DNA from: Ilex aquifolium
Lineage: Eukaryota; Streptophyta; Magnoliopsida; Aquifoliales; Aquifoliaceae
Length of the DNA stretch: 64,000 bases
Assembly (NCBI GenBank): GCA_951799425.1
Contig: OX637393.1
Location: 10,846,744 to 10,910,743 of the forward strand
Reading direction: 5' to 3'
In this document: one piece after another, positions 1,619 through 64,000 of the stretch
Numbering within the stretch: position 1 is the stretch's first letter
How the letters are laid out: each line of letters opens with the position of its first letter
Translations under genes and position numbers: made by a program
Notes under the pieces: generated by a model
Told to the model about the DNA's origin: nothing
Seen by the model: the letters and a program-made list of their open reading frames with translations, nothing else
The model's database searches: none

Positions 1619-2723
1619 TACCACTACAAGAAATTATACTTTTAGCCGCTAGATTTAAATTGTAGCTAAAAACGTTGTCACTAAATATATATCTTTAATG
1701 ACAAAAAATTATTATTGCTACTGAAGATATGATATTCAAATTATTTAGTGATTACAATTATTTATCGCCACTAAAGATATATAACTAGTGGTGAAAAATT
1801 ATTAGTGTCACTGAAGATATGACAATGAATCTAGTTAGTGATAATTTGAATGTTGCGGCAAAAAACACATCATTAATTGATCACTAATTCTAAATATTTA
1901 GTGACAACAATATAAATTTAGTCACTAATTAAATTTAAATTTTTAGTCAAAAAATAATTATTGTCACTATATATAATATAATAAATTTAATGAGTGACAG
2001 TTTTATTGTCATGGCTAAAAAGCTAATTATTTGTCATTAATTTTTGATGAAAAAATATTTTAGTGGCAACAATTTATTTTTATCACTAATAATCTAGATA
2101 AACAATTATTTTTAGTCACCGCACTTTTTTTACTGCAGCTGATTCTCAGTTCACATGTATATACTCTCCCTCTCTCTCTTTCTCGACCTTTCTTTCTCTC
2201 ACACACAGGCCCTCCTCTCTCTTTCTCTCTCGCGACCTCGCGATCTCTCGACCTCGCGACCTCTCGACCTCTATCTCACACACGAGCTCAGTGATCGGCT
2301 AGGGCACAAAGTCTTATCTCTATCAACCTCTCAGTGATTGCAAAGCAGATCTGTAGAAGACGAAGCTATTGATTTGTGTTTTGCAGAGCAAATCTAGATA
2401 AACAATTAGTAAGCTCCTCTCTCTACTCTCTATGTTGCTTCTCTATTCTCTATCGAGCATTGATTTGTATTTTTTGTGTTTGTTTTTCTGCAACCAGATT
2501 CCTTTACCATTTGTCTAATTGTTTTCGATAAATTAGCTAAACAAATGACTCTTTTGATGAAATCAGTAGATGTCTTTGTTTCTTTATTGTTTCAATCTGT
2601 TGTTATTCAGTTTGATTTCTAGTTTATCGGCAAAAAGTTTATTGCTTGATTTCCAATCGGTAATTGTTTCTTGAACTGAAAAACTTGGGATTTCTTCCGT
2701 CCGCATCTCCCAGCCCAAGGTTC

Positions 2724-2728
<5 letters not shown>

Positions 2729-2790
<62 letters not shown>
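2729..2790. repeat. (CT)n microsatellite
   Basis: About 31 uninterrupted CT units sit 120 bp upstream of the captured ARL exon. CT-rich leaders are common in plant genes, so this probably came in with the captured 5' region. Confidence 0.95.
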
Positions 2791-2791
<1 letters not shown>

Positions 2792-2909
2792 ATCACTTCA
2801 AAATTTACGCCTTCAAGAATCGATTTATGTATGAATTTGAATTATTCAATGATCATAAAATCTATTGCGTTTTTGTGTTTGTGTGTGTGTGAGGGTTTAG
2901 GTAAAAAGT

Positions 2910-3101
2910 ATGGGGGCATTTATATCGAAATTTTGGTTCATGTGGTTTCCGGCGAAGGAATACAAGATCATAGTCGTTGGATTGGATAATGCTGGTAAAA
3001 CGACGACGCTTTACAAATTACATTTGGGCGAGGTTGTCACCACTCATCCTACAGTTGGTAGCAATGTTGAGGAGATTGTTTACAAGAACATACGGTTCGA
3101 G
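2910..3101 (+). pseudogene. Captured first coding exon of an ARL5/ARFB-type small GTPase
   Basis: The exon encodes 64 residues from an initiator ATG. It shows the ARF-family N-terminus (MGAFISKFW), the P-loop GLDNAGKTT and a switch I region TVGSNVEEI; the SNVEE form is typical of ARL5/ARFB rather than classical ARF1 (FNVE). The frame stays open to GAG followed by a GT donor at 3102, after which reading runs into intron-like sequence and stops. The next expected motif, WDLGGQ, was not found in the element, so this is a fragment of a host gene carried by the surrounding CACTA element. The CT-rich stretch just upstream probably includes part of the parent leader. A GTPase cannot fold from this exon alone; whether it is transcribed is unknown. 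Confidence 0.85.
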
Positions 3102-4246
3102 GTGCTTAATCTTGAATCTTTATTACTTTGTCTATTTTGATTATTACTTGCTAATGAAATTTGTGTTTGTTAAGAATTGAGGATGGGTTTTACTTGTACA
3201 TGATTGTTGTGTGCCAAAGTTAAGCAATGATTGGTGAATTGAGGTTTGTGATGTTGGGTCTCGTGTTTGTTGATTGTGCTGGCAATCTTTGTTTTCGTTT
3301 TCGTTTCCTCTCAAGAGAAGAAGTGGAACGTGAATATCGGTCTAAGTTATTATTTTCCTAATTTGCTAGTTGAGTTGTTCCAGACCACTGGTTGTCAAAA
3401 CTGCCCAATTCATCTGTATGTGTTTGATACTTTGATTGCCAAGAAGTAATTTTTGTAACTGTTGTGGGGTTTTTTTTTTTTTTTCCATTTTGTGTACTCA
3501 AGGGCTTGATGTGCAGTTGAAGTAAATTTGAAGGGAAGATTTGTACGCATGTTGTTACGAGTTTCTGATTTTATTCTTATGTGGCTGGCTCGATTGTAGA
3601 TCAGTATTGCCATTGCGGCTCAGCTGCAAATTTCGAGTACATCTCGGGTTGGGAGTTCTTGGTAGCAAGTTATGGAGTGTTAAATTAGAAGACTTAGGAA
3701 GGGTAAATAGTTGGGGTTGTTGAATTATAGTTTTGGTTGGAATACTGTGAAATGTGAGGGTGCTTTTCATTACGGTAGAAAATCTGTTAGCAGAAGATTA
3801 CTGAGCAATGATACCTGAGAGCTGGATTCTTTCGGTTGCTGATGTGGTGATATGTGGTTTAGTTATTGTTTGGTTAATACCGATCATTCTGCATTGGGGC
3901 AATTTCAATTGCAAGAGTAATATCATTAGAAATAAGAATGACTAGTGATGCACGACATGGTAGAAAGTTCAGTTGAATTGGTGTTGCATCATGGCTCTTT
4001 CCTGAAATTTTCTCCCAAAAAGTCTATCCAATTGGATATTAACTCATTCTTGTTGTATGCATCTTTTCACTTACAAGGAATAATAATATCAAAGAAGATG
4101 ATCATATCTTTCGCTCAAATTTCGAGGAATGATTGGGCTGGCAGGAGATCGAGAGAAGTCTATGTAAGTTATCCTATCCTTCTCCATTTCCTTGAAATAT
4201 CTTCTTACATAATGCTAAATTGATAGATTGTAATCTTTCCAAATGT

Positions 4247-4368
4247 AGAGCGACCTTAAGAGGCTAGAGGCTCAATCAATGGAGGAAGGAGCTACCCCCA
4301 TGACTGAGGATCAGAGGTTTGAAGCAGTGCTCAGTCCGGAAAAATCAGGATATATACGTGAAATTTGA
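4247..4368 (+). pseudogene. Transposase-like coding fragment (plant Ptta/En-Spm type)
   Basis: After an AG acceptor-like TGTAG the frame reads a short stretch including MTEDQRFEAVL and SGYIRE, then stops. This resembles the MTEDQ...VLG..SGYIRGLG block common in plant En/Spm (Ptta) transposases. Only about 40 residues remain. A further open stretch around 4500-4695 has no recognisable similarity. It supports assigning the host element to the CACTA superfamily but encodes nothing functional by itself. Confidence 0.5.
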
Positions 4369-5321
4369 AAATATTGAAAAATAAATTCTTTCAAATATGC
4401 GATAGGTTTCTTTGTTCATTTTAATGTATTGATTAGTAACGACAATTGAGTTGTGCTTGGCCTTTGTTGGATACTTTGGCTGAAATTAAGAAGATTCTGG
4501 GCAGAATGCAATATTCCCTGCAACCAATTTTGTTTCTGATGGACTGGCTAATAAGGCTGTTGAGGTTGGTTCTTCTCTTGACACCTCCAGTTTAAATCTA
4601 CTTCCTGTTGATTTGCGTTTGAAGGTGAGGCAGGATCAGAGATCTTTGCCTGTGTTGCGAAGAAGAACTGTCCTGGTCTTTGATGATCATGGCTAATGGC
4701 TGCTTGCTTGGTTTGGAAGATGTGCAGGTTATCTACTGGAGAGAGTACAGGTTATCAACTGGAGGATTTACATATACATAAGAGAATACTTGTATAGGAT
4801 TTATTCCAAATATTCATTGTAAATGCTGTTTTTTTTAAAGGGTTTCCCATTCTTTGCTTCTTGTAAAATTTTGATTTCATGGAATAAAATTGTTTCTTTT
4901 AAAAAAAATAAAATTAGTAACGACAATAAATTGTCAAAAATCATATTTCAAATTTTAGTGGTGATTTTAATTGTGGGTAAAATGTATACTTTTAGCCGCA
5001 ATTAATTTTTGTCACTACATGTTAGGTTTTAATAGGACTTTTAGTGGTGATATAGTATATTTTAGTGGCAAAATTTAGTTTATTTACTACAATAATTATG
5101 ACGGTTAAAAATTTCACATTTAGTGGCATTTTTCATGGTGCGGCTAAAAAATTTACTTTTAGTGGCAACAATTAAATGTCATAGCTAAATGATTTAGCCA
5201 CACACATATTGCCGCGGCTTAGTGGCAATAAAAATTTTGTCACTAAAGTATATAGTGACAATATTTATGCATTTAGCCGCAATAATTTTCGCGGTTAAAA
5301 GTCAAATTTCTTGTAGTGTAC

Positions 5322-8786: not shown

Positions 8787-10161
8787 ACAACATAAGCAAA
8801 AAGAAATGGTTTTGGCATTTAGAAAAATCATACTTAAGGGTTCGTTGATAAGTCATCGTCATAAGAGTTATCAAAAGAAATATAAGAACGTTGTAAATCA
8901 TTTTGTGACTATGATTTGATGTAAAGCAATGACGATTTTGAAAAAAATAAAGACAAATAGTTTGTAAGCACATTTGTTAATTGTTATTGGGCATAATCAT
9001 TCTTATGTTCTACCAAAATTGTTCTTTTACTTCGAATGGATAGAGGAATAATTCAGTGAGAGAAATATTATTGTTGCGCAGGGCCGGTCTAACCACAAAG
9101 TTAACAAAGCTTGAGCTTTAGGCCACATATTTCAAGGAGACTCTAAAATTCCTAAGCTTATAGTTATCCAAATAAAAAAAAAATAGATCTACAAGATTTT
9201 AGGCCCCAAAAATAGTCATATGAAATTTAAATTAAATAAAAAATAAATTTGAGTAGTTTGAGTTCATAAATCCCAGCCCATAATATTAAATACACCAAAA
9301 TAATTTTTTTAGAAATAAAAAAAAAAAAAAAAAGCAAATGCTGAGTGTTGAAAAAAAATTTCAACTAGTCAACCGAAACAAATCACTCATTTTTAACCAT
9401 TCATTCTCTTTCTCTCCCTCTGTCTCCCCTCTCTGTCCAAAACGCAAAATTTTAAAAATCTCAAACATATCTCTCTCTCTCTACCCCCTCTATGTCCAAA
9501 ACATAAAACTTAAAAATCTCATTTTACGAATTATTTTTGATTTGTATTAAGAAAAATATACCATTTTTTTAAATGTTTATTAAACTTAAAAAATTAAAAT
9601 TAGTAGACCATGATTTTTTAATATTAAAGGATATTTTTTAAAATTAAAATCAAATGTTTTCATATGATAGAAAGGAAAAGGTGTTAATCCGCACGAGACT
9701 TCAAATAATCTTGGATTACACTTGTTGATGCGTTTAATGCCAATCTTTCAAACCCTCCTAAGGGTTAGTCACCCTTATTTTTTTAAGGACATATTTTAAC
9801 TCAGCTCAAGTTACGGTAGTTAGTCATTGAACTCGAAAGAAAAATCAATGTAAACTTAGACACATGTAACCAAAAAAAAGGAAAGATAATGTCTGTATTG
9901 AGTCAATAATCGAGTGACGACTCCAATGTTGGGTGTGCAACTGTTGTACTGCAACAAAGGATGTTTAAAGTACTCGGAGGATAGAAAGAGAACACATTGA
10001 GAAGGATTGGTACACATAAATGAAATAATTTATCATTAAGACATGTAGCATACTTTTATAAAATTACTCGGTGGATACATTTTTTTGATAAACAATTTTT
10101 TAAAAAAAATATGATCGGAGAATACATTTATTAAACAATGTGACCTAGTGCACAAGACTCT
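8787..10161. other. AT-rich intergenic sequence with repeat debris
   Basis: No coding sequence is supported. A hAT-like start (CAGGGCCGGT near 9080) has no matching right end. A CT-rich stretch lies at 9405-9500. A dispersed repeat at about 9757-9850 recurs at 26211-26300. Confidence 0.5.
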
Positions 10162-10185
10162 TGTCACTACAAAAAAAATCGTTTT

Positions 10186-10765
10186 TTGCGACGATTTTTT
10201 TCGTCGCTAAATTCAAAAAAATCGTCGCAAATTATTTTTTGCGACGTTTTTTTTTCGTCGCATGTTCGTCGCAATAGCCTCGTCGCAGAAAGTATTTTGC
10301 GACATAATTTCATTTGCATCGCAAAAAAAAAAATTTTGCGACGAAAAAAAATCGTCGCTAAAAGTCAAAAAAACGTCGCTAAAAACCCATTCCATCAGCT
10401 TAAAAAATCGAAAATAATAATGAAATTAATTTTTTGCGACGTAAAAAAATCGTCGCAAATAATTTTTTACATAAAAATAAAAAATAATAATTTAATTAAT
10501 TTTTGCGACGCAAAAAAAATCGTCGCTAATATTTTTTTACATAAATTAAAAATGTGAAAAATAATAATTTAATTAATTTTTGCGACGCAAAAAAATCGTC
10601 GCTAATATTTTTTTGCATAAATAAAAAATGTGAAAAATAATAATTTAATTAATTTTTGCGACGTAAAAAAAACGTCGCAAATAAGTTTTTTATAAAAAAT
10701 ATAAAAAAAAATAATAATTTAAGTATTTTTGCGACGTATAAAAATCGTCGCTAAAAAGTTCATTT
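10186..10765. repeat. Left-end GCGACG/CGTCGC hairpin array
   Basis: About eight short inverted repeats occur, each GCGACG, a T- or A-rich loop, then CGTCGC. From about 10430 they fall in tandem units of roughly 75-80 bp sharing AATAATTTAATTAATTTTT. The same hairpin motif fills the right end of the element. Confidence 0.85.
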
Positions 10766-11027
10766 TTTTTTATAATAACCCTTTATAAAAAATAATATTC
10801 TAATAAAATTTTTCACCTGTACACCAATAATACCTGTTTTAAAAATTGTATTCTAATAAAATTCTAACAAAAACATTTTTTTCTTTTTAAAAAGAAAGAA
10901 AAATTTTATTTCAAAAAATGCATTTACAAGAAGCAAAGAACAACAGCTCTACAAAAAAATAAAATGGCTTTAATCCTTCAAAATGGATTAAACCATTTCT
11001 AATTACAAATTGGAAATGTCAAAAAAA

Positions 11028-11360
11028 CTAAATGCCTTCAAACTTCATTCCATACTCCAGCTCACCCATCAACATGGCATCGCCTCGCCCAGCTGATCTT
11101 CCACCTTTATCATCTGCTACACTCTCGATGCCCATACTACAAGGAACATATTCAGTATCAAATATTAACCTAAGACAAACTTACCAGAATATAATTTTTC
11201 ATTTTGACAATATTAACAAAAAGGAAAAGTGGCTAAGAATAAATCAAGAAAAACAAGACAACCAAACAAAATAAATGTAGGTTTTTGATCCTGACCTCAC
11301 ACCACGAGTTCCATCAAAGGTGCATAATCCAATTTGGGAGCATATCTTATTTGCAATATC
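11028..11360 (-). pseudogene. Captured aspartic proteinase exons (PSI domain start)
   Basis: On the minus strand one segment (11296 to about 11360) reads IANKICSQIGLCTFDGTRGV and a second (11028-11136) begins SMGIESVADD. Together they match the start of the plant-specific insert (saposin-like swaposin domain) of plant vacuolar A1 aspartic proteinases. The second segment follows the family to about GDAM and then diverges to a stop. A short intron between them (11137-11295) keeps a GT donor and an AG acceptor, and the serine codon is split exactly across it. That means genomic DNA, not mRNA, was captured. Catalytic domains are absent, so this is a gene fragment. Confidence 0.82.
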
Positions 11361-12625
11361 AAAAATCATATATATACTAGCACTAGCCACGCGGCTAAAA
11401 ACACTTTGCAATATCAAAAATCGAGCTTTTTAAAATATTAGTTAGTGCACACGTGCGTTGCACGTGGACCAATTCGAGTTGTAATTTCAATTTTTAGTTT
11501 TAAATTTTTTGTTCAGAATGTGAGTATTTGAGCAAAAAAAAAAGACAAAGGAATATGTGTTTGAAGATATGTTTATTAAATGACAAAAATTGAAACAAAA
11601 AGAAGGAGATAGAAGAGTGCTTAGTACACATGATAGTCTACCTCCTTATATACAAAGAAGAGGAAGTTGAAACCTACTTGGTTCTCCTGTTAATGGTCTC
11701 TGGACAAGAGAATGATGTACTTGACCATATTTTTTTCCTCTGCATCACTCTGTCTTAGAACCAAATAAAGATTTTTATGCTATGTATACTTCTTACTCTA
11801 TAAATGCTATTTGAGTAGGTAGGGTTGTAGGTTCAATTCTAACCTCATCTCGATCCCCAACTTATAGTAGTTCAAATGATCACAACTAAGTTTTGTACTA
11901 CCATAAGATTTTTTTGATCAAATTTGGATCAAAGCTCTAGCTTGAATGGTTGATATACAACCCTTTGGTTTCTCCAAGCTTCAGTGTAATATATATGTAC
12001 ATTAGTTCAGCTAGAGCTTGATAAGAACCACTTTCCGGAAAGTCTGATGAGAACCAAACATAATTTCACCTAGCTTGTTTAGTATTATACTACAAACTTC
12101 ACTGACCTGCAACATTTTAGCACTCTTACAATTTGTTATTGCAATTATGAATTATAACATACTTCAAGATATACCATTTTATCAAGCTCTAAATCTATTT
12201 TTCTATCAAATAAATGACAAGAAATTGGACCAAATCAAATCAACAATCCCACAACTGTAATCATGTGCTCATACACCACATAATTGCAAGATAACATATT
12301 TGTTATGAACAAGCATCAAATTGAAATAAAACAAACCTAATTTGTGATTTCATATTGTGCACATACAAACTGTGTTGCTACAAAAAAAAACTTGTCCATT
12401 TCCTTGCAATTGAATGTTTGCAATTTCATTTCACATTAGAACAAGCAATTTCTCCAATGCCTTAAAGAGAGAAAGAGGGAGAGGGGAAGGTGAAAAAAAG
12501 GGTGAGTGTGTGTTTGTTTATGAGCAAAAAACATGAGTAGAAACCCATCAAACCTCTCATTATAACCAATGCCTGAATGAAGGGTTTTGAAAAGCAAATA
12601 ACTAATGCCAGAGAAAACTTCTTAC

Positions 12626-12695
12626 AACTCATTCATTTTGCTATCAAATTGACGACCTTCAAACTGAGATCCCTTTGGTGTGGCACCTGCCATGA
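12626..12695 (-). pseudogene. Captured first coding exon of eIF4A
   Basis: The exon reads MAGATPKGSQFEGRQFDSKM from an ATG at 12693, matching the N-terminus of plant eIF4A, the DEAD-box RNA helicase of translation initiation (family pattern MAG.APEGSQFDARQ.D.KMNELL). An AG acceptor lies just before the ATG and a GTAAGA donor at 12625-12620 follows NEL, as expected where eIF4A has an intron in its leader and another after this exon. No helicase motifs occur nearby. It is a fragment carried by the 11-kb CACTA-like element, on the same strand as the aspartic proteinase exons. Confidence 0.8.
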
Positions 12696-12786
12696 CTGCA
12701 AAAAAATTGACAATCATTAATAAGGTGAACTCATACAGCTCCAAAAATAAAGTAAATGACAGATTGCATGTTTGTATTCACAAAGC

Positions 12787-12822
<36 letters not shown>

Positions 12823-13239
12823 TTGAGGGAGTCTTAAACAAATTACAGGACATATTATAACCTGAAAAATATTTTTTTTTTCCATTAATTTGAACCATAC
12901 GCGCACTAAACATAACTCATTTGTTTATCAAATAATCCAGCCAACGGCTCCTTTTAATTCTTTTCCCCAATTGCATTTAACTCTATTCAATCGAGCTTCA
13001 ATGAGCAAAAAACTACATTACCAAAACCTAGATGCTTCCCCCGTCACCCTTTCCCTTTGGGTTTTTTTTTTCAATTCCACATAAAGATGGGAAATTTCAA
13101 AACCCAATACTTAAGAATAAAAAATTCTTCCTCCAACACACAACATAGCCCCAAATATTCATCCCAAAAAACTGAAGCATCGAACAAAATACAATTTGAA
13201 TAAATTTATATACACATACCATGCCACTCTTTCCTCTCA

Positions 13240-14075
13240 CGGAAGAAAACAAAGATTGCTATGTGATGTTCAAACAATAACACCTTGTGTTTTGATGCAG
13301 GTCAAGAAGCTTAAAGGGATCAAGACTCGTATTGTTTAAACTCATATGCATCTCATTCAAGAATATGCAAAGCCCAAGACCGACAACTTTATGGATGGGA
13401 TTGGGATTAACTCCAAATTGTCACATCCCTACAAAGAAAGTCAAACAAAAGAAAAGAAAGAAAGATTGCTATATGATGGCCAAGCGATAATCACCATACC
13501 TTGGTAGAGATCTAAAAAACTTGAAGGGATCAAGATTTGTATTGTTCAAACCCATATGCATCTCATTTAAGAATATGCAAAGCCCAAGCCTGAAAAACTT
13601 AGAATCATAAGATATCTAAAAAATACAAATCAACCTGCAGAAAGATCGGATTACTTCCAAATTGTTGGTTCCCCAAAAAGGAAAAAAATACAAAAAAAAA
13701 AAATCAAGGAAAGAAAGATTGTTGTGTAATGGTCAAACGATAATCTCCATACCTTGATACAGATCAAAAAGATTGAAGGGATCAAGTTTAGTTTGTATTG
13801 TTCAAACCCATAAGCATCTCATTCAAGAATATGCAAAGCTCAAGAGTAAAAACCATAGAATCATAGGATATCTGCAAAAACACAATCCAACACGCAGAGA
13901 GATAGAATTACCACCCAAGTTGTTAGTTCCCCAAAAAGAAAATAAAAATCAAGGAAAGGAAGATTGCTATGTGACGATCAAACGATAGTACATCACACTT
14001 TGATAGAGATCAAGAAGCTCAAACGGTTCAATATCTGTATTAATCAAACCTATACGCAGCATTCAAGAATGGTTG
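13240..14075. repeat. Four-copy tandem repeat of about 240 bp
   Basis: Four diverged direct copies begin near 13250, 13465, 13715 and 13965. Each contains AAGATTGCTATGTGATG-like sequence, then AGGGATCAAGA, then CATTCAAGAATATGCAAAG. The copies differ by many substitutions and small gaps, so the duplications are not recent. A GA microsatellite follows at 14106-14127. Confidence 0.8.
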
Positions 14076-14832
14076 AGTGTCTATGTATATTTGCTCTGCC
14101 AAAAAGAGAGAGAGAGAGAGAGAGAGATTTACTACTCTCTTCCTTTTGGGTACTAAATATCTGCTAGTTGTTTTACAGGGTATTATAATAAAAAATATCT
14201 TCTTTGCTTTTTATATTTCTTGATCTAGTTGCTTAAATATTACTATAGAATGAAATAGTTTTTGATTTAATTTTGCTGGAATGTGGATTAAGTAAATTTT
14301 TAATACATGGTGTGACCTCTGGTAGATTTTGTTAAAAGAAAAAAAAAAAGGTTATAGCCTTACAATTTCTAACCCACTAATTAATCAAAAATAACAAAAC
14401 ACACCACATAACACATAAATTCTTTATTTTTTTTGGTAGATTGAAAAGTTATAATACACGAATTCAACATAACAATTATAAAGCATGACAGATTTCAATA
14501 AATTCATCTGATGGTCTCAAATAGATTCATCTAACGGCCACCAACATCCCTCTCAAAATCATTCACATTATAATTCAAATGTGACGTCAACACCTAAGTT
14601 GTTTTATAAGATTGATCTTATAGGGATAGGGGGGAAGAATACCGATCACCTACTTAATGAAGGTCCACTGAAAATGCCTTATCTTTTTTCCAAAGGATTT
14701 AACAACACTACTAATATAGAGCTCGAAAGACTATAACAACATAAAAGTTTTGCTTCTTTTTTTTCTGCTCTAAGTTGCAATTCAAAAAAAAATATAGGAT
14801 ACTTGACAACCATATAATGAAAGTTATGTAAC

Positions 14833-15129
14833 TTATGTTATAAGTTTGATGTAATATGGCTTATCAGTCATATTTTCTAAATTTACATCAGTGGGACTTA
14901 GAATGCCAATTGTTCTAGATGACCTAGAAGAGAATGCTTTTGGGACAAGTTGCCTAAACTTCTCTCTGGGAACATCCAACGGACACCAACCTCCTTCAAA
15001 AAATGGAGCACCCATTACCACATCTAAGTGAGTTAGAGATTCAAAGATGATAACATGAACTAAAAACAAGAGATTCAAAGGTGGACAAGACGTCCAAACC
15101 AAAGACAAGTCGAAGCAAAGAAAATACAA
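14833..15129 (-). pseudogene. Unidentified coding-like stretch inside the CACTA-like element
   Basis: A minus-strand open frame of 98 codons has coding-like composition in its central part (FEGGWCPLDVPREKFRQLVP and TDVNLENMTD). A possible AG acceptor (TTTTTAG) lies just before VHVIIFESL near 15063. I do not recognise the family. It lies between the captured eIF4A exon and the CT-rich leader-like region and shares their strand, so it may be another captured exon or a remnant of the element's own gene. Confidence 0.4.
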
Positions 15130-15844
15130 TATAAAGAAACCAAAACTACATCACACAATAAGCTGTCCAATTCGAAAATACCCGAGTTTTTGATTAAAAT
15201 GCATCAACTGTTGAGCTCAGCTGGTATCTCAGGTTCCTTCCTTCACGGAAAAGGTACAAGATTTTCGAAAGACATGGTATTGGGGATCCTTACTTCCTTC
15301 AGAGAAAAAGAAAAGGTAAAAGAGCTTAGAAGGAGAATAGTAGGGAAGGGTTTATGGGTGAGGGAAAGGCTACTCGTCATTTAGCCCATGCTGTTGTACC
15401 AGAAGAAGAGACAAATTGAAAGCCAATCAATGTCTTCTTTCCATTTTTTGGAAATGGGGCCAATAAATTTCAAGTATGTTATAAGTGTAGAATTCTTGCC
15501 AAGCTTAAGGTATCTATAGGCAATATAACACATGGTTGCGCATGAATGCATCTCATTCAATACAGTCATCCTTAATCACTGTAGGGCTTAGATATTTGCC
15601 AATCCCTGAGTAAGAAAGGTACAAAGATTTATATTCAAACATTAATATGTCAATTTCTCAAAACTCTACTGCCAAACCCATCACCCCCACCTCCAAAAAC
15701 AAAGAAGGAAAGGAAAAAGAAAGAAAGATAACGGCAATATAATAACAGCTATCTGAAAAAACCAAGCCATTGCACATAGAACTTGGACCAGACTCAAATT
15801 TCCATTATCGTCTCAGGAAACAACTGAAACCGAGGCCAACCCAT

Positions 15845-15995
15845 ATACAAATTGAAACCCACAAAGGAAAAAAGTTGCAATCAAACAATGTATAGTCATC
15901 GAAGAGGTAAAACAAATAGAAACCCACAAAGAAAAACTTGCAATCAAACAACGTATAGTCATTGAAGGGGTAAAACAAATAGAAACCCACCAAAA
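15845..15995. repeat. Two-copy tandem repeat of about 65 bp
   Basis: Two direct copies share GAAACCCACAAAG, CTTGCAATCAAACAA and GTATAGTCAT with few differences. They belong to the interior of the 11-kb element. Confidence 0.75.
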
Positions 15996-16084
15996 AAGTA
16001 CCCGAGTTTTTGGCCAAACTAACAGTATTTTCCAAAATAATTCCCAAGTTAACACCCCAAATGCCTCATACGGCAACATTAAAC

Positions 16085-16790
16085 ACATAAACCCAGATGA
16101 GCTACAAATCTGAAGCAGCAAATCTGAGAGAGAGAGAGATAGAGAGAGAAAGAGACCATACCGTGGAGCCTTCAGCCGGTGGAGCCTCAGTTCAGACAGT
16201 GGAGCCTCAGACGGTAGAGCCTCAGTTTTGGTGAAAATTTGAAGCAGCTTTGTTCGATTTTGATCGATTGATTTTGAGAGAAAGAGCTTTGTTTATTTTG
16301 ATCGATCGATTTGTTCGATTCTGAAGCAAATCTGAAGCAAATAGCTACGCAAATCTGAAGCAGCAATCACTGCGATAGATCTTCTGTGGAGCCGATGGAG
16401 CCTTCTCGGTGAAGCTTCAGTGATATTCGGTGAAGCCTGCGATGAAGCCTTGTCGGTTCTGTGCTGTGGAGCTTCAGTGAGACAGAGAGAGAGAGGGCCA
16501 GCGGTGGCTTGTGGCTTCGACTAGCAGGGAGAGGCAGAGAGAGAGAGAGTCTGTGCGTGTGTGTGTGTGTGTGTCGACTGAAAACGAAGAGGCAACGACG
16601 GGGAAAGAGATAGAAAAACAGAGAGAGGGAGACGGTGAGTGAGAGAGAGAGTGTTGGAAACGGGAAGGTGAAGAAGAAGGGGCAGCTAGGGCCATGGACG
16701 TATTTAAATACTAAAAACGACGTCGTTTTGAGTATAAATGAATTTTCTTTCGCCCAAAAACGATGTCGTTTCTCTTTTAAAAAATATATT
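16085..16790 (-). promoter_or_regulatory. Leader-like CT-rich region with possible promoter
   Basis: On the minus strand this stretch is strongly CT-rich, with repeated GGCTCCAC-type motifs, several CT runs and a short GT run near 16557-16574. A perfect palindrome AAAACGACGTCGTTTT lies near 16715, and TATTTAAATA and GTATAAAT lie close by. Plant leaders often look like this, and the captured exons lie downstream on the same strand. Calling it a promoter is inference. Confidence 0.35.
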
Positions 16791-17025
16791 TTGCGACGAA
16801 ATATAAAACGTCGCAATTAATATTTTAATTCTAATTTAAAATTACAAAAAACAGAATTCTGCGACAAATATAAAACGTCGCAAAAAATAATTTTATTCAG
16901 CTCCCGCCATCTTTCAGGCCAAAAATAAATTGGGAGGGAATCACATTTTAGCGACGTTTTCCAAAAACGTCGCAAATGAAATTGCCAAAAAGGAAATTTG
17001 CGACAAAATTCAAAAAACGTCGCAG
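16791..17025. repeat. Internal GCGACG hairpin cluster
   Basis: Four inverted repeats of the GCGAC...GTCGC type (near 16795, 16861, 16952 and 17000) lie at the left border of the satellite. A segment here (CTCCCGCCATCTTTCAGGC, then GGGAGGGAA) resembles the unique piece near 21105-21135 (CCCGCCAGCTCTCCCGCCA, then GGAGGGAAA), so two related end modules bracket the tandem arrays. Confidence 0.75.
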
Positions 17026-17035
17026 ATAGTAAACA

Positions 17036-19863
17036 TTTAAATTATATCATTTCAATTTCATTCAATTAACACCCAATTCATCAAATTAACATTCAGATTT
17101 AACAAACTGACATTCAATTTCATCATATTAACATGTAATTTCATCAAATTGACTTTCAATTTTATTAAATTAACATTCAATTTCATCAAATTAACATTCA
17201 ATTTATGAAATGGACCTTAAATTTCATCATATTAACATGTAATTTCATTAAATCGACTTTCAATTTTTTAAATTAATATTCGATTTATCAAATTGACATT
17301 CAATTTCATCAAATTAACATTCAATTTATGAAATGGACATTAAATTTCATCATATTAACATGTAATTTCATCAAATCGACTTTCAATTTGATTAAATTAA
17401 CATTCGATTTATCAAATTGACATTCAATTTCATCAAATTAACATTCAATTTATGAAATGGACTATAAATTTCATCATATTAACATGTAATTTCATCAAAT
17501 CGACTTTCAATTTTATTAAATTAACATTTGATTTATCAAATTGACATTCAATTTCATCAAATTAACATTCAATTTATGAAATGGACCTTAAATTTCATCA
17601 TATTAACTTATAATTTCATCAAATCGACTTTCAATTTCTTTAAATTAACATTCGATTTATCAAATTGACATTCAATTTCATCAAATTAACATTCAATTTA
17701 TCAAATTGACATTTAATTTCATCAAATTAACATGTAATTTCATCAAATCGACTTTCAATTTCATTAAATTAACATTCCATTTTATCAAATTAACATTCAA
17801 TTTGATTAAATTAACATTCGATTTATCAAATTGACATTCAATTTCATCAAATCGACTTTCAATTTCTTTAAATTGACATTCAATTTCATCAAATTAACAT
17901 TCAATTTATGAAATGGACCTTAAATTTCATCATATTAACTTATAATTTCATCAAATCAACTTTCAATTTCTTTAAATTAACATTCGATTTATCAAATTGA
18001 CATTCAATTTCATCAAATTAACATTCAATTTATCAAATTGACATTTAATTTCATCAAATTAACATGTAATTTCATCAAATCAACTTTCAATTTCATTAAA
18101 TTAACATTCTATTTTATCAAATTAACATTCAATTTAAGAAATGGACATTAAATTTCATCATATTAACATGTAATTTCATCAAATCGACTTTCAATTTGAT
18201 TAAATTAACATTCGATTTATCAAATTGACATTCAATTTCATCAAATCGACTTTCAATTTCTTTAAATTGACATTCAATTTCACCAAATTAACATTCAATT
18301 TATGAAATGGACCATAAATTTCATCATATTAACATGTAATTTCATCAAATCGACTTTCAATTTTATTAAATTAACATTTGATTTATCAAATTGACATTCA
18401 ATTTCATCAAATTAACATTCAATTTATGAAATGGACCTTAAATTTCATCATATTAACTTATAATTTCATCAAATCGACTTTCAATTTCTTTAAATTAACA
18501 TTCGATTTATCAAATTGACATTCAATTTCATCAAATTAACATTCAATTTATCAAATTGACATTTAATTTCATCAAATTAACATGTAATTTCATCAAATCG
18601 ACTTTCAATTTCATTAAATTAACATTCCATTTTATCAAATTAACATTCAATTTGATTAAATGGACATTCGATTTATCAAATTGACATTCAATTTCATCAA
18701 ATCGACTTTCAATTTCTTTAAATTGACATTCAATTTCATCAAATTAACATTCAATTTATGAAATGGACCTTAAATTTCATCATATTAACTTATAATTTCA
18801 TCAAATCAACTTTCAATTTCTTTAAATTAACATTCGATTTATCAAATTGACATTCAATTTCATCAAATTAACATTCAATTTATCAAATTGACATTTAATT
18901 TCATCAAATTAACATGTAATTTCATCAAATCAACTTTCAATTTCATTAAATTAACATTCTATTTTATCAAATTAACATTCAATTTATGAAATGGACATTA
19001 AATTTCATCATATTAACATGTAATTTCATCAAATCGACTTTCAATTTGATTAAATTAACATTCGATTTATCAAATTGACATTCAATTTCATCAAATCGAC
19101 TTTCAATTTCTTTAAATTGACATTCAATTTCATCAAATTAACATTCAATTTATGAAATGGACCATAAATTTCATCATATTAACATGTAATTTCATCAAAT
19201 CGACTTTCAATTTTATTAAATTAACATTTGATTTATCAAATTGACATTCAATTTCATCAAATTAACATTCAATTTATGAAATGGACCTTAAATTTCATCA
19301 TATTAACTTATAATTTCATCAAATCGACTTTCAATTTCTTTAAATTAACATTCGATTTATCAAATTGACATTCAATTTCATCAAATTAACATTCAATTTA
19401 TCAAATTGACATTTAATTTCATCATATTAACATGTAATTTCATCAAATCGACTTTCAATTTCATTAAATTAACATTCCATTTTATCAAATTAACATTCAA
19501 TTTATGAAATGGACATTAAATTTCATCATATTAACATGTAATTTCATCAAATCGACTTTCAATTTCTTTAAATTAACATTCGATTTATCAAATTGACATT
19601 CAATTTATCAAATTAACATTCAATTTATTAAATGGACATTCAATTTCATCAAATTAACATGTAATTTCATCAAATCGACTTTCAATTTCATTAAATTAAC
19701 ATTCAATTTCATCAAATTAACATGAAATTTCATCAAATCGACTTTAAATTTCATTAAATTTACATTCAATTTATCAAATTGACATTCAATTTCATCAAAT
19801 TAACATTCAATTTATAAAATGGACATTCAATTTCATTAAATTGACATTCAAATTTACATGTGA
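17036..19863. repeat. Hierarchical satellite: ~20-bp, ~128-bp and 850-bp periods
   Basis: The base unit is about 20 bp (TTAACATTCAATTTCATCAA and close variants). Variants are ordered into blocks of about 128 bp that contain ATTTATGAAATGGACC and AACATGTAATTTC. These are again grouped into an 850-bp unit: TTTTATTAAATTAACATTTG starts at 17511, 18361 and 19211, exactly 850 bp apart. Two full 850-bp copies and a partial third are present. No coding sequence is present. The array lies wholly inside the CACTA-like element. Confidence 0.92.
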
Positions 19864-19888
19864 ATTAAATTGATATTTTTTTTAATTT

Positions 19889-21090
19889 TGTTAAAAAGCA
19901 TCCAAGTTAATTTTTTTGTTGATTTTTAATTTTGTTAAACTGTTATTTGCGACGTTTTTTGAAAACGTCGCTAAAAAACATCCAAGTTAATTTTTGTTAT
20001 TTTTTATTTTTTGTACACTGTTATTTGCGACGTTTTTTGAAAACGTCGCTAAAAAGCATCCAAGTTAATTTTTTTTGTTGATTTTTAATTTTGTTAAACT
20101 GTTATTTGCGACGTTTTTTAAAAACGTCGCAAAAAATCATCCAAGTTAATTTTTGTTGATTTTTTATTTTTTGTACACTGTTATTTGCGACGTTTTTTGA
20201 AAACGTCGCTAAAAAGCATCCAAGTTAATTTTTTTGTTGATTTTTAATTTTGTTAAACTGTTATTTGCGACGTTTTTTTGAAAACGTCGCTAAAAATCAT
20301 CCAAGTTAATTTTTGTTGATTTTTTATTTTTTGTACACTGTTATTTGCGACGTTTTTTGAAAACGTCGCTAAAAAGCATCCAAGTTAATTTTTGTTGATT
20401 TTTTATTTTTTGTACACTGTTATTTGCGACGTTTTTTGAAAACATCGCTAAAAATCATCCAAGTTAATTTTTGTTGATTTTTTATTTTTTGTACACTGTT
20501 ATTTGTGACGTTTTTTGAAAATGTCGCTAAAAAGCATCCAAGTTAATTTTTGTTGATTTTTTATTTTTTGTACACTGTTATTTGCGACGTTTTTTGAAAA
20601 CGTCGCTAAAAAGCATCCAAGTTAATTTTTTTTGTTGATTTTTAATTTTGTTAAACTGTTATTTGCGACGTTTTTTAAAAACGTCGCTAAAAATCATCCA
20701 AGTTAATTTTTGGTGATTTTTTATTTTTTGTACACTGTTATTTGCGACGTTTTTTGAAAACGTCGCTAAAAAGCATCCAAGTTAATTTTTGTTGATTTTT
20801 TATTTTTTGTACACTGTTATTTGCGACGTTTTTTGAAAACGTCGCTAAAAATCATCCAAGTTAATTTTTGTTGATTTTTTATTTTTTGTACACTGTTATT
20901 TGCGACGTTTTTTAAAAACGTCGCTAAAAATGAACAAAGTTAATTTTTTTGTTGATTTTCAATTTTCTGTAAACTGCTATTTGCGACGTTTTTTAAAAAC
21001 GTCGCTAAAAATGAACAAAGTTAATTTTTTTGTTGATTTTCAATTTTCTATAAACTGCTATTTGCGACGTTTTTAAAAAACGTCGCTAAT
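19889..21090. repeat. Fifteen-unit tandem array, ~80 bp, one hairpin per unit
   Basis: About 15 units of 77-82 bp each carry GCGACGTTTTTTGAAAAC followed by GTCGC, an inverted repeat able to form a stem of 10-11 bp. The spacer contains CATCCAAGTTAATTTTTGT and TTTTTTGTACACTG. One unit (near 20505) has a changed stem (GTGACG / TGTCGC) that keeps partial pairing. Three more hairpins continue to the right end of the element. They probably grew from the subterminal repeats. Confidence 0.9.
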
Positions 21091-21295
21091 AACTTTTCCC
21101 GCCAGCTCTCCCGCCAAAGACAATTCGGAGGGAAAATCATTTTTGCGACGTTTTAGTAAAAACGTCGCAAAAAAACTTGCCAAAATTGTATTTTGCGACA
21201 AAATTTAAAATCGTCGCTCATAGTCTACTTTTTGCGACGATTTTAAAAACGTCGCAAAAAAAACGTCGCAAAAAAAGTATTTTGTTGTAGTGTGT

Positions 21296-21518
21296 CACTA
21301 TAGGATCTGGGAAAAGTCAGAAATATATAGCACTACTTCTCATGCAGAGAGGCTGTTCTACGACTCGAACTGTTGATACATATGCAATTATGAAATAATC
21401 TTATCAATGTGCCAAGACCCACACTCATATAATACATTCATTAAATATTAAAATTTAAGATATTTTCAAGTCATCCTAACAAATAAATAACTTGTAACAA
21501 AAAATCCCCAAGTATGCG
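21296..21518. other. Short intergenic spacer
   Basis: Nothing recognisable lies between the large CACTA-like element and the first hAT element. Confidence 0.5.
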
Positions 21519-43077: not shown

Positions 43078-43608
43078 TAGTTGAGGAGCTCGAAAGTCTT
43101 AACTGTACTTCTGTTGAGTCAAATAGACTCAATCCGACTAGGTGAGGGACTTAAAATCCCAACTTTGCTTCTACTGAGTCAAATAGATTCAATCTAAGCT
43201 ACGCGAGGGGATTGAAAGTCCCATCTTTGCTTTCGTTGAATCAAATGGACTCAATCCGAGCTAGGCGAGGGGCTTGAAAGTCCCAACTTTGCTTTGCTTC
43301 TGTTGAGTCAAATAAACTCAATCCAAGCTAGGTGATGGGGCTTGAAAGTCCCAACTTCGCTTCTATTGAGTCAAATAGACTCGATCCGAACTAGGCGAGG
43401 GGCTTGAAAGTTCTAACTTTGCTTCTGTTGAGTCAAATAGACTCAATCCAAGCTAGGTGAGGGGCTTGAAAGTCCCAACTTTGCTTTGCTTCTGTTGAGT
43501 CAATAGACTCAGTCCGAGCTAGGTGAGGAGCTTGAAAGTCCCAACTTTGCTTCTGTTGAGTTAAATAAATTCAATCCGAGCTAGACGAGGGGCTTGAAAA
43601 TCCTAATT
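43078..43608. repeat. Tandem repeat of about 65 bp, 8-9 copies
   Basis: Each unit reads approximately GAGGGGCTTGAAAGTCCCAA, then CTTTGCTTCTGTTGAGTCAA, then ATAGACTCAATCCGAGCTAG. Two units have an extra TTGCT insertion. Copies differ by a few bases each. The array directly follows the gypsy-type fossil. Confidence 0.92.
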
Positions 43609-46126: not shown

Positions 46127-48458
46127 CTATTTGTATTGCCTTCTCAACGTAGGAAGCGGCGGAATACTTTGTTCATTCCTGAAGAAATTGTCTGGATCAA
46201 CCTCGCTCTTCACTTGTGCCAATCTCTCAAAGTTACCCTTGAAGTACTTTCTTCCCCAAACCACTGCTTGTGTGTAGCTTGAGTTATCCCCCGGGTTGGT
46301 CCCTAAATCGAGATCCCTATAATTGAAATACGAAGCCCTAGGAGAGTGGGAAACATATAGCTTCATGTACTTATAGAGCCTTCTGATCCAGTTTAAATGC
46401 CTGTTTGTTGCCCCAACCCCATTGACATCCCATTTTACTATGTATTGTATGTTGTACAAATTGCCTTTTCTATGAGGGAAAGGAAGCTCAGATTCCGAAA
46501 TTTCACTCATTTTTTCACCATAAGGATCCATTATCATGAAAACTATCTCTTCTTTCAAAAACATTTCCCAAATCCCTTCCAGTGCACTTTCCGGCATTGG
46601 TTCCTTCACATAGTCTGATTTTGCCTTGAAATTGCTCTTATATGGGACAATTCTGTCGAGTAAAACATCCAAGGGCTCTTCTTTCCCATATCCTGCAAAA
46701 TAGACAATAGATTCAATCCAACTCATTTCAATGCAGTCTTTAGCCCGCATACCCAACTCGGGGAACCTCTCATTCATCAAAGGGATTAGCTCTTCAATTT
46801 TCCCAAGAAATAACGAGTTAAATGAAACTTGGACTGTTTTCTTCTTGCCTTCGCTTTCTCCATTCATATTTTGAATGATAATTCTGACAAACAGATTTTT
46901 GTGTAGTTCATGTGCGATATATTGCCACCGATGAACAAGTTTGGTGGTGTTGTCGTCTAAAGTGTTTGGAACAGTGAAAACAGTCACAATGGGTGGAACA
47001 CGAACCAGTTTGATTTTCCATGAAACTATGATTCCAAAACTTTCAGCTCCTCCCCCTCTAATTGCCCAAAATAAATTTTCACCCATGGTTTTTCTGTCAA
47101 GAATTCTGCCATTGACGTCGATCAAGTAAGCATCTATAATATTATCTGCTGCAAGTCCATATTTTCTCGACGTGGTACCAAACCCTCCTCCACTGAAGTG
47201 CCCACCAACACCTAGTAGAGAAAATTCAAATCAAACTAGTAGACTTAATAATTTGAGAATTTATGTATCTAACAACTATCTAGCATACAATTATCTAGTA
47301 TGCCACGAAAAAAAAAAAAAAAAACCAATTTACATATATGTATTGAGTTGCCCTGTTAGTTTCTTTTCTGGTCATCAGTTGCCCTGCTAGTTTGAACGAC
47401 ATGCAATCACTATCCTAAAGTAAGTGTCATCATGTGATAGTACCTCTTCAATGTGATGCTTAAATTGCCCAAAAAAGCTCAAAAATTATAGTGCCAGCAA
47501 GAATTATGGAAAATGTTCGGTCATAAGGATGATGAGTCACTTGATGATAGTTTAGGATGATCCCATTATGCAACTTGGACCTTCTTATACAGGTTTCAAC
47601 CTCAAGAACACAAAGGCAAAATGGTAAAGCCTAATTATTTTGTAATAAAAAAGCTACAATGATATCTATAATATAAAATAGAGCAGACTTCAATAAGTCC
47701 ATCCGACGGTCTCAAATAGACTCATCAAACGGCCACCAATATCCTTCTCAAAACCATTTACAGTACACAGTGCCTTCAGGTACGGTTACCCTTAGTAATA
47801 TTATAAAAAACAAAGGTAAAGTTGAAAAAAAAAAAAGAGAGATTAAAACGAAAAACAAAATCATATATGTTGAATATTATAAGTCCTAAAAACTTTAATA
47901 AGAATATGAGAAATAAAGTAGCATTTTATACTCAAATTCTAACCCACCTACACTGGGGCACAACCCTGCTGGGAATCCATGGATTTCACTTTCTTGAGCA
48001 ATACTATAATAAAGTTCCCCAATTGTTGCCCCAGATTGAACCCATGCTGTTTCTTTTTCGATATCAATACTGATCGATCGAAGATTGATTAAGTCGATGA
48101 TGACGAATGGTGTTTCGCAGAGGAAAGACTGGCCTTCATAGTCATGGCCTCCGCTTAGAACTCGGATTTGGAAGCCATTCTTTCTGCTACACAGAATGGT
48201 TGCTTGGATTTGGGTTTCTGTGTATGGTGTGATGATGAAGAGTGGTTTTGAGGTTGTGGAATTGACCCATCTGGGATTTTGTTGAAAAGACTGTAGGAGA
48301 TATGAATATGAAGGAGTGACTGAGGGGTAAATGTATTTTGTGGAGTTAATAGAGCTAGTAGAATTGATGGACATGCACTCAATGAAGTCTTCATGAATTG
48401 CATTACACACTCCCCATGAAACTGCTAGCAGTAGTGAAATTATTGCAATGAAACCCAT
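46127..48458 (-). CDS. Berberine-bridge-enzyme-like FAD oxidoreductase, complete
   Basis: Exon 1 is 47948-48458 and exon 2 is 46127-47211, with a 736-bp GT...AG intron. The spliced protein is 531 residues, the usual length. Residues 1-20 form a signal peptide, so it is secreted or enters the endomembrane system. The FAD-binding domain has both residues for bicovalent flavin attachment: H105 in SGGHDYEG and C167 in GLCPSVG, the codon after the valine being split by the intron. The C-terminal BBE domain carries the family motif [11 protein letters not shown]-like enzymes oxidise alkaloid intermediates, monolignols or oligosaccharides; the substrate here is unknown. The start is supported by the signal peptide and by AAATGG context, with a CT-run leader before it. 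A TATATAG lies near 48520. A related gene lies at the right edge of the window. Confidence 0.94.
47212..47947 (-). other. Intron of the BBE-like gene
   Basis: The intron holds an A-rich run (47308-47324) and a dispersed repeat at about 47685-47780 that is related to 14470-14570. Confidence 0.8.

Positions 48459-63033: not shown

Positions 63034-64000
<967 letters not shown>

Follow-up and report, generated by a model that had tools for sequence, protein, structure and literature searches.

What kind of unit gathers pieces of unrelated host genes and long tandem arrays between one pair of matched ends? The question is raised by a locus of holly, Ilex aquifolium, where an 11-kb CACTA-like element had been proposed from the letters of a 64,000-nucleotide stretch on C3 (hereafter "the window"). 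The original prediction described this element as a single body bounded by a TGT duplication, which captures gene fragments and grows its own satellites. We find that the interval from 10165 to 21292 is, with high confidence, a non-autonomous, gene-carrying CACTA (En/Spm-type) DNA transposon; its features are collected in Table 1.

The case for one mobile unit, which the prediction had made, begins with the ends. CACTA terminal inverted repeats are present, CACTACAA starting at 10165 and TTGTAGTG ending at 21292, with TGT on each side, and the subterminal repeats occur in both direct and inverted orientation, a feature of the CACTA superfamily. Of 100 first-order Markov resamples of the window, 1 contained CACTACAA and TTGTAGTG at a distance of 0.5-20 kb with the same 3 bp on either side, and the real window holds two such pairs, at 10165-21292 and 1622-5318. 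The latter bounds a second CACTA-like unit of 3.7 kb, running from CACTACAAGAAAT... to ...ATTTCTTGTAGTG, with TAC on both sides and a different subterminal sequence. Rfam at its gathering cut-offs gave no match within the window, and three end-like sequences sought in the literature led to no transposon paper by title.

Copies elsewhere in the genome (800 Mb, 103 contigs) tie the two ends together. We searched with the left 336 bp of the element; 40 of 701 first-look candidates were scored, all 40 matching the full query, and 10 of them, chosen as full left-end matches, were retrieved at 20 kb each. CACTACAA starts all 10 at the homologous base, partly as a result of that selection, and TTGTAGTG with a matching 3-bp duplication closes nine (TCA, GCA, TCT, GTA, TTG, TCA, TAT, ATT, and TAA), or 10 of 11 elements when the window copy is included. 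The retrieved copies range from 483 to 13,839 bp. Copy C9 (2,082 bp) keeps both ends at 99-100% identity without anything between window positions 11778 and 20837, including the 21-bp array, and copy C5 (483 bp) consists of ends only; the two ends thus belong together. Such same-ended copies lacking arrays or exons were what the original prediction had proposed to look for, and ends drawn from different elements, which it had named as fatal to its case, are at odds with the joint occurrence of both ends in these 10 elements. A 29-base end motif occurs exactly 309 times in the genome (153 + 156) and its reversed-pattern control not at all; these are counts of ends rather than elements, because three facing pairs among 100 listed places may be one element each. 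At C3:36865246-36910397, four family ends in the same orientation lie at spacings of 20.7, 11.8, and 12.7 kb, as tandem insertions or a segmental duplication would leave them.

The insertion site gives a second line of evidence. A query of 550 bases, in which both flanks were joined and a single TGT kept, returned the two window flanks at 100% and five other places at 69-74% that span the junction. These five are diverged repeat copies without the element, with no alignment gap at the junction and one target trinucleotide each. By these alignments, the element is inserted within a dispersed repeat that resembles a short interspersed nuclear element (SINE), the empty form of which, in diverged relatives, has one copy of the target. 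We take this repeat to be similar to the plant Au SINE; it spans the window around 10125-10164 and 21296-21430, and the letters CACTA directly after the right TGT are there because they are part of it. At the level of sequence, then, the copies and the empty-site alignments show past movement of the window unit.

Between the ends lies host coding DNA, as in Pack-CACTA elements: exons of phytepsin and of eIF4A, for both of which donor loci were found, so that the two identifiable gene fragments of the original prediction are confirmed. The protein piece of one phytepsin exon matches prophytepsin 1qdm in the PDB (E 8.5e-7); the other exon piece has no PDB match, and SapB_2 in this fragment stays below the Pfam cut-off (E 0.047). 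Window sequence 11000-11353 recurs at five further places with 95-98% identity; for two of these, 11363-11444 is likewise listed, some 650 bp beyond, and from this spacing the first capture was probably longer. The same 82-bp piece (L039 1328-1409, matching window 11363-11444) is found in the donor phytepsin intron, about 660 bp from the captured exons; the repeat pieces at 11363..11655 may represent a Helitron 3' end. The eIF4A identity is assigned because of the neighboring donor exon (the next exon of the C3:45.74 Mb locus matches eIF4A, E 1.4e-6) and the DNA match; two short N-terminal pieces have no PDB match, and we assume that 12522..12805 reads as the eIF4A N terminus.

A possible third fragment had also been proposed, and in fact two more exist, from a SPARK-domain gene and a TRIP4-like gene, but both are apparently intronic. 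At C11:6.65 Mb, the captured segment neighbors an exon that encodes a SPARK domain (E 3.7e-13), and the 302 bp between the two SPARK pieces are missing in all 11 elements examined. The donor at C14:22.53 Mb encodes a zf-C2HC5 domain (E 1.9e-13), with a TRIP4 match below cut-off; in this part, 278 bp were deleted at a TTCAA microhomology in the window copy and copy C2a and are kept in copies C3, C6, and C14. A P450 identity for 14836-15150 (minus strand), drawn from a weak PDB match (E 0.018), was rejected, as the segment maps between exons of the SPARK-domain gene. The four host-gene donors lie far apart in the genome, and capture was from DNA, since introns are kept. The phytepsin fragment is present in 7 of the 10 retrieved copies and the SPARK/TRIP4 block in 4, a distribution that suggests stepwise capture, probably with phytepsin first. 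Other cargo is found in relatives: L045, read over its left end and module, has an open reading frame (ORF) with short matches to SHMT (E 5.5e-8) and ribosomal S26e (E 4e-7), and in L046 (C10:6631500-6637700), also a family member, a different host-like ORF replaces the cargo of the window copy. An APC2 identity considered for one L046 ORF found no match in PDB or Pfam and is not counted; a second L046 ORF has one Pfam match, below cut-off.

The tandem repeats are as much a part of the family as the cargo. Tandem Repeats Finder (TRF) recovers the four repeats that had been described, with periods of 76, 63, 21, and 79 bp, but the 63-bp repeat is of host origin: it is also in the donor intron and so arrived with the captured DNA instead of arising in the element. 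TRF gives the left array a period of 76 bp in 9 of the 10 other copies and 78 bp in C5, the right array has a period of 79-81 bp, and the 21-bp array, directly inside the right array, has a motif span of 1.15-4.84 kb in eight other copies, whereas C9 and C5 lack it. The diverged copies C2b and C18 have all three arrays (left, 21-bp, and right), so the array plan is old. Hairpin arrays had been proposed at both ends: the subterminal motifs are indeed concentrated in the element (26 of 28 GCGACG and all 33 CGTCGC in the window), and one right-end hairpin unit folds better as DNA than 200 of 200 shuffles (z -3.8), but one left-end unit folds weakly (z -1.5, 18 of 200 shuffles equally good), and the motif also occurs inside, at 16869-17038. 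One stretch of the 21-bp array is intermediate (z -2.4, 6 of 200 shuffles equally good).

Array length changes among otherwise similar copies. Five unique segments are 97-99.8% identical between the window element and copies C2a, C3, C6, and C14, apart from one C6 segment at 83%; in wider blocks, identity falls to 85% in C6 and, in one block, to 88% in C14. The 21-bp array measures 2801 bp in the window, 1971 in C2a, 1705 in C3, 1201 in C6, and about 1720 in C14 (TRF), and the 79-bp array 1198, 1198, 1908, 1149, and 1227 bp, respectively (for C6, a motif count gives 641 bp, and the TRF value of 1149 bp was used). Differences of up to 1.6 kb in the 21-bp array, and of 0.7 kb in the 79-bp array of C3, among copies mostly so alike in unique sequence therefore indicate array turnover since these copies diverged, clearly so for the 79-bp array in C3.

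The window element appears to depend on relatives for its movement. None of 9 selected window ORFs has a transposase match in Pfam. With 150 of 293 candidates scored, the genome has at least 151 matches to PF02992 (CACTA transposase), and none of the places listed is inside the window, where small remnants could remain. We compared 100 listed end motifs, drawn from C1 through part of C4, with the 47 PF02992 matches listed on C1-C4. Four of these matches lie 9-15 kb inside a listed end on the opposite strand and none inside on the same strand, two lie outside an end, one per strand, and uniform random placement puts a mean of 0.16 inside ends, with a maximum of 2 in 2000 trials, against the 4 observed. 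In addition, two PF02992 matches (C3:50.94 and 50.98 Mb) each have a copy of the 16.6-16.8 kb module about 4 kb away, on the opposite strand; these two places may be one duplicated stretch. These positions suggest that the family includes transposase genes, with transcription running leftward in the window orientation. TNPA-like identities were considered for two ORFs of copy C11b, of which one has below-cut-off Pfam matches and the other none, and are not claimed.

A mechanism consistent with these observations can be outlined. A TnpD-type transposase from relatives would move the element in trans, recognizing its terminal repeats together with the subterminal GCGACG/CGTCGC motifs. Stepwise capture may proceed by fusion of neighboring insertions, as has been published for Pack-CACTA elements as a model, or through error-prone gap repair in which other templates are copied; deletions would follow capture, including the one at a microhomology. 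Length changes in the 21-bp and 79-bp arrays would come from replication slippage, or from unequal repair, inside individual copies.

Several points weigh against this account of the element and its movement. Copy C2b, one of the 10 retrieved, has flanks that differ (TAT/TTG). The empty sites that the original prediction had named as possible support, with a single TGT, are matched in the single target copy of five relatives but not in its bases, which are CGT, TGA, CGT, CGC, and AGT, and these relatives are diverged repeats, neither an orthologous nor an allelic site. The data do not distinguish fusion from gap repair as the route of capture. The transposase partner is shown by position only, the random-placement control ignores the clustering of transposons, and for 41 of the 47 listed PF02992 matches no listed exact motif stands at a distance of 1.5-18 kb, which leaves room for other CACTA families as the source of transposase. 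Finally, the 79-bp arrays are equal in the window copy and C2a, and turnover of this array rests mainly on C3.

These points apart, other histories for the arrays and cargo have to be considered. The arrays might be true satellites that invaded the element or were captured by it, as the Chenopodium authors allow for a satellite in a CACTA element with the words "captured (or possibly generated)" (PMC8978399, in its available text). A 37-base motif of the 21-bp array has 1200 exact matches in the genome, of which the 94 listed for C1 group into 21 clusters. Seven of these are without a listed exact family end or family module nearby, as free satellites would be, and two adjoin family modules; the remaining 12, however, lie in one orientation, on the same strand and 5.0-11.1 kb inside an exact family end, where 0.07 are expected. 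Three clusters also have an opposite-strand end less than 15 kb away, consistent with facing pairs. The longest cluster measures 4.6 kb, none exceeding 4.7 kb, and the arrays are also found in the diverged C2b and C18. We therefore consider invading satellites improbable, and on the C1 evidence the 21-bp arrays look like internal minisatellites. The claim that the element grows its own satellites is borne out only for changes of array length inside copies, and no free satellite of the 21-bp array was seen on C1. At C1:9784976-9787983, about 1 kb separates two opposite-strand clusters of the 21-bp motif, and no listed exact end lies closer than 15 kb on the side where one would be expected.

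The right end raises the further question of whether the element is a composite of two CACTA insertions, the inner duplicate and the outer end being separate in origin and the outer ends now moving together. The inner block duplicates the right subterminal block at 75% identity, both large arrays (21-bp and 79-bp) sit between the two, and the Pack-CACTA model predicts hybrids of neighboring insertions (PMC8903248 and PMC13317346, both in part). However, the block is at the inner place in 8 of the 10 other copies, at 95-99% in five and partially, at 73-75%, in the diverged C11b, C18, and C2b, so the duplication predates the window copy, and in nearly all elements the present ends are found as a pair, flanked by matching duplications (see above). 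A composite origin is thus a possibility to be kept in mind, if an unlikely one. Least probable is the reverse direction of transfer, in which pieces of the element were inserted into host genes: two of the four matches (SPARK and TRIP4-like) are apparently intronic, where transposon debris is common, but the phytepsin and eIF4A matches include coding exons of recognizable genes at donor loci, no CACTACAA end with GCGACG motifs was seen in the phytepsin, SPARK, and TRIP4-like donor stretches examined, and the TRIP4-like donor keeps the 278 bp that some copies have and the window copy and C2a lack. We retain the reading of a gene-carrying CACTA transposon that captured host DNA and whose arrays change length within copies.

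The orientation of the cargo invites a more ambitious interpretation. The sense strands of the phytepsin, eIF4A, SPARK, and TRIP4-like pieces are all on the window minus strand, and the L045 ORF has the same relative direction; cargo sense thus agrees with the inferred direction of the transposase gene in five of five cases, with a two-sided chance of about 0.06 in an unplanned sample. Splice dinucleotides are kept: the phytepsin intron still has its GT and AG, and the eIF4A exon is still flanked by AG and GT. The module at 16055..16800 is a probable promoter and 5' untranslated region of a leftward transcription unit. It is conceivable, though we think it rather doubtful, that the lineage is a sense-oriented exon trap with self-expanding ends, in which chimeric mRNAs would arise from the element promoter and growing right-end hairpin arrays would add binding sites for a transposase accessory protein, favoring the element's own movement. 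The significance of the locus would be greater if captured exons were shown to be joined in transcripts, or if array length were shown to influence movement. The family copies form a series, from ends without cargo to one captured gene to several, with varied array lengths and with the donors still in the genome, so that within one family the order in which genes were captured, how microhomology was used, and how fast arrays change can all be measured.

Elsewhere in the window, a separate tandem array at 43083-43603 has a 62-bp period and about 8 copies. Two similar-looking sets of long ORFs, at 46127-48458 and 63034-63999 (both minus strand), perhaps reflect a local gene duplication; we take them to resemble berberine-bridge-type oxidases.

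Table 1. Features of the CACTA element and its insertion site, in window coordinates
Feature	Position	Strand	Remarks
Whole element	10165-21292		11,128 bp; window on C3 (C3:10846744-10910743)
Left target-site duplication	10162..10164		TGT
Left terminal inverted repeat	10165..10193	+	CACTACAA, extended imperfectly to TTTTTTGCGACG
Left subterminal array	10411..10754	+	TRF period 76 bp, 4.6 copies; GCGACG/CGTCGC per unit
Phytepsin (aspartic proteinase) fragment	11072..11353	-	Parts of two exons with their intervening intron; 95% to C3:1.13 Mb gene
Repeat pieces	11363..11655		11363-11444 in phytepsin intron, 89%; 11435-11655 94% to C9:12.376 Mb
eIF4A fragment with first coding exon	12522..12805	-	89% to C3:45.74 Mb locus
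Upstream part of same eIF4A locus	12843..13214	-	79%
Segment matching C14:29.19 Mb locus	14132..14588		89%
SPARK-domain gene pieces, apparently intronic	14596-15037, 15043-15175	-	99% and 97%, respectively; C11:6.65 Mb
TRIP4-like gene, first-intron pieces	15193..15997	-	98% and 97%; C14:22.53 Mb
63-bp repeat	15847-15997		Also in TRIP4-like donor intron
CT-rich (minus strand) module	16055..16800	-	Wholly or partly common to many family members
Inner duplicate of right subterminal block	16869..17038	+	170 bp; 75% identical to 21074-21232, E 4e-27
21-bp tandem array	17051..19851	+	83/124 super-periods, 135 copies (TRF)
79-bp hairpin array	19892..21089	+	15 copies (TRF)
Right terminal inverted repeat	21285..21292	-	TTGTAGTG
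Right target-site duplication	21293..21295		TGT; target inside SINE-like dispersed repeat

The original prediction had regarded the size of the element, and its linking of capture with satellites, as exceptional, and published elements do not bear this out. Tgm-Express1 of soybean, a CACTA element with five fragments of unrelated host genes in which exons and introns are likewise kept, is smaller, at 5.7 kb against 11,128 bp, and its abstract mentions no internal arrays (PMC1947982). Pack-CACTA and other Pack-TYPE elements share the CACTACAA ends, the target duplications, the host DNA from several loci, and a proposed capture by fusion of neighbors; they differ in their small stated sizes (311-535 bp in Pack-PIF and Pack-Mariner examples), and the words "satellite" and "tandem repeat" are absent from the main text of PMC8903248 (see also PMC13317346, in part). 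Closest are the CACTA elements of Chenopodium, for which the available text of PMC8978399 describes captured gene fragments, in Jozin and others, satellite arrays near the 3' end, and a C. quinoa element of 16.5 kb with a 5.5-kb satellite array. Their array unit is 171 bp, the array elements retain a transposase domain, and gene fragments and arrays are described there in different elements, whereas the window element has both. Among open-licence papers, represented mostly by titles and abstract openings, we found no further element that clearly unites gene capture with satellite arrays. Each of the two is thus already in print for CACTA elements, and what the holly element offers is no new principle but an unusual combination of both in one element.

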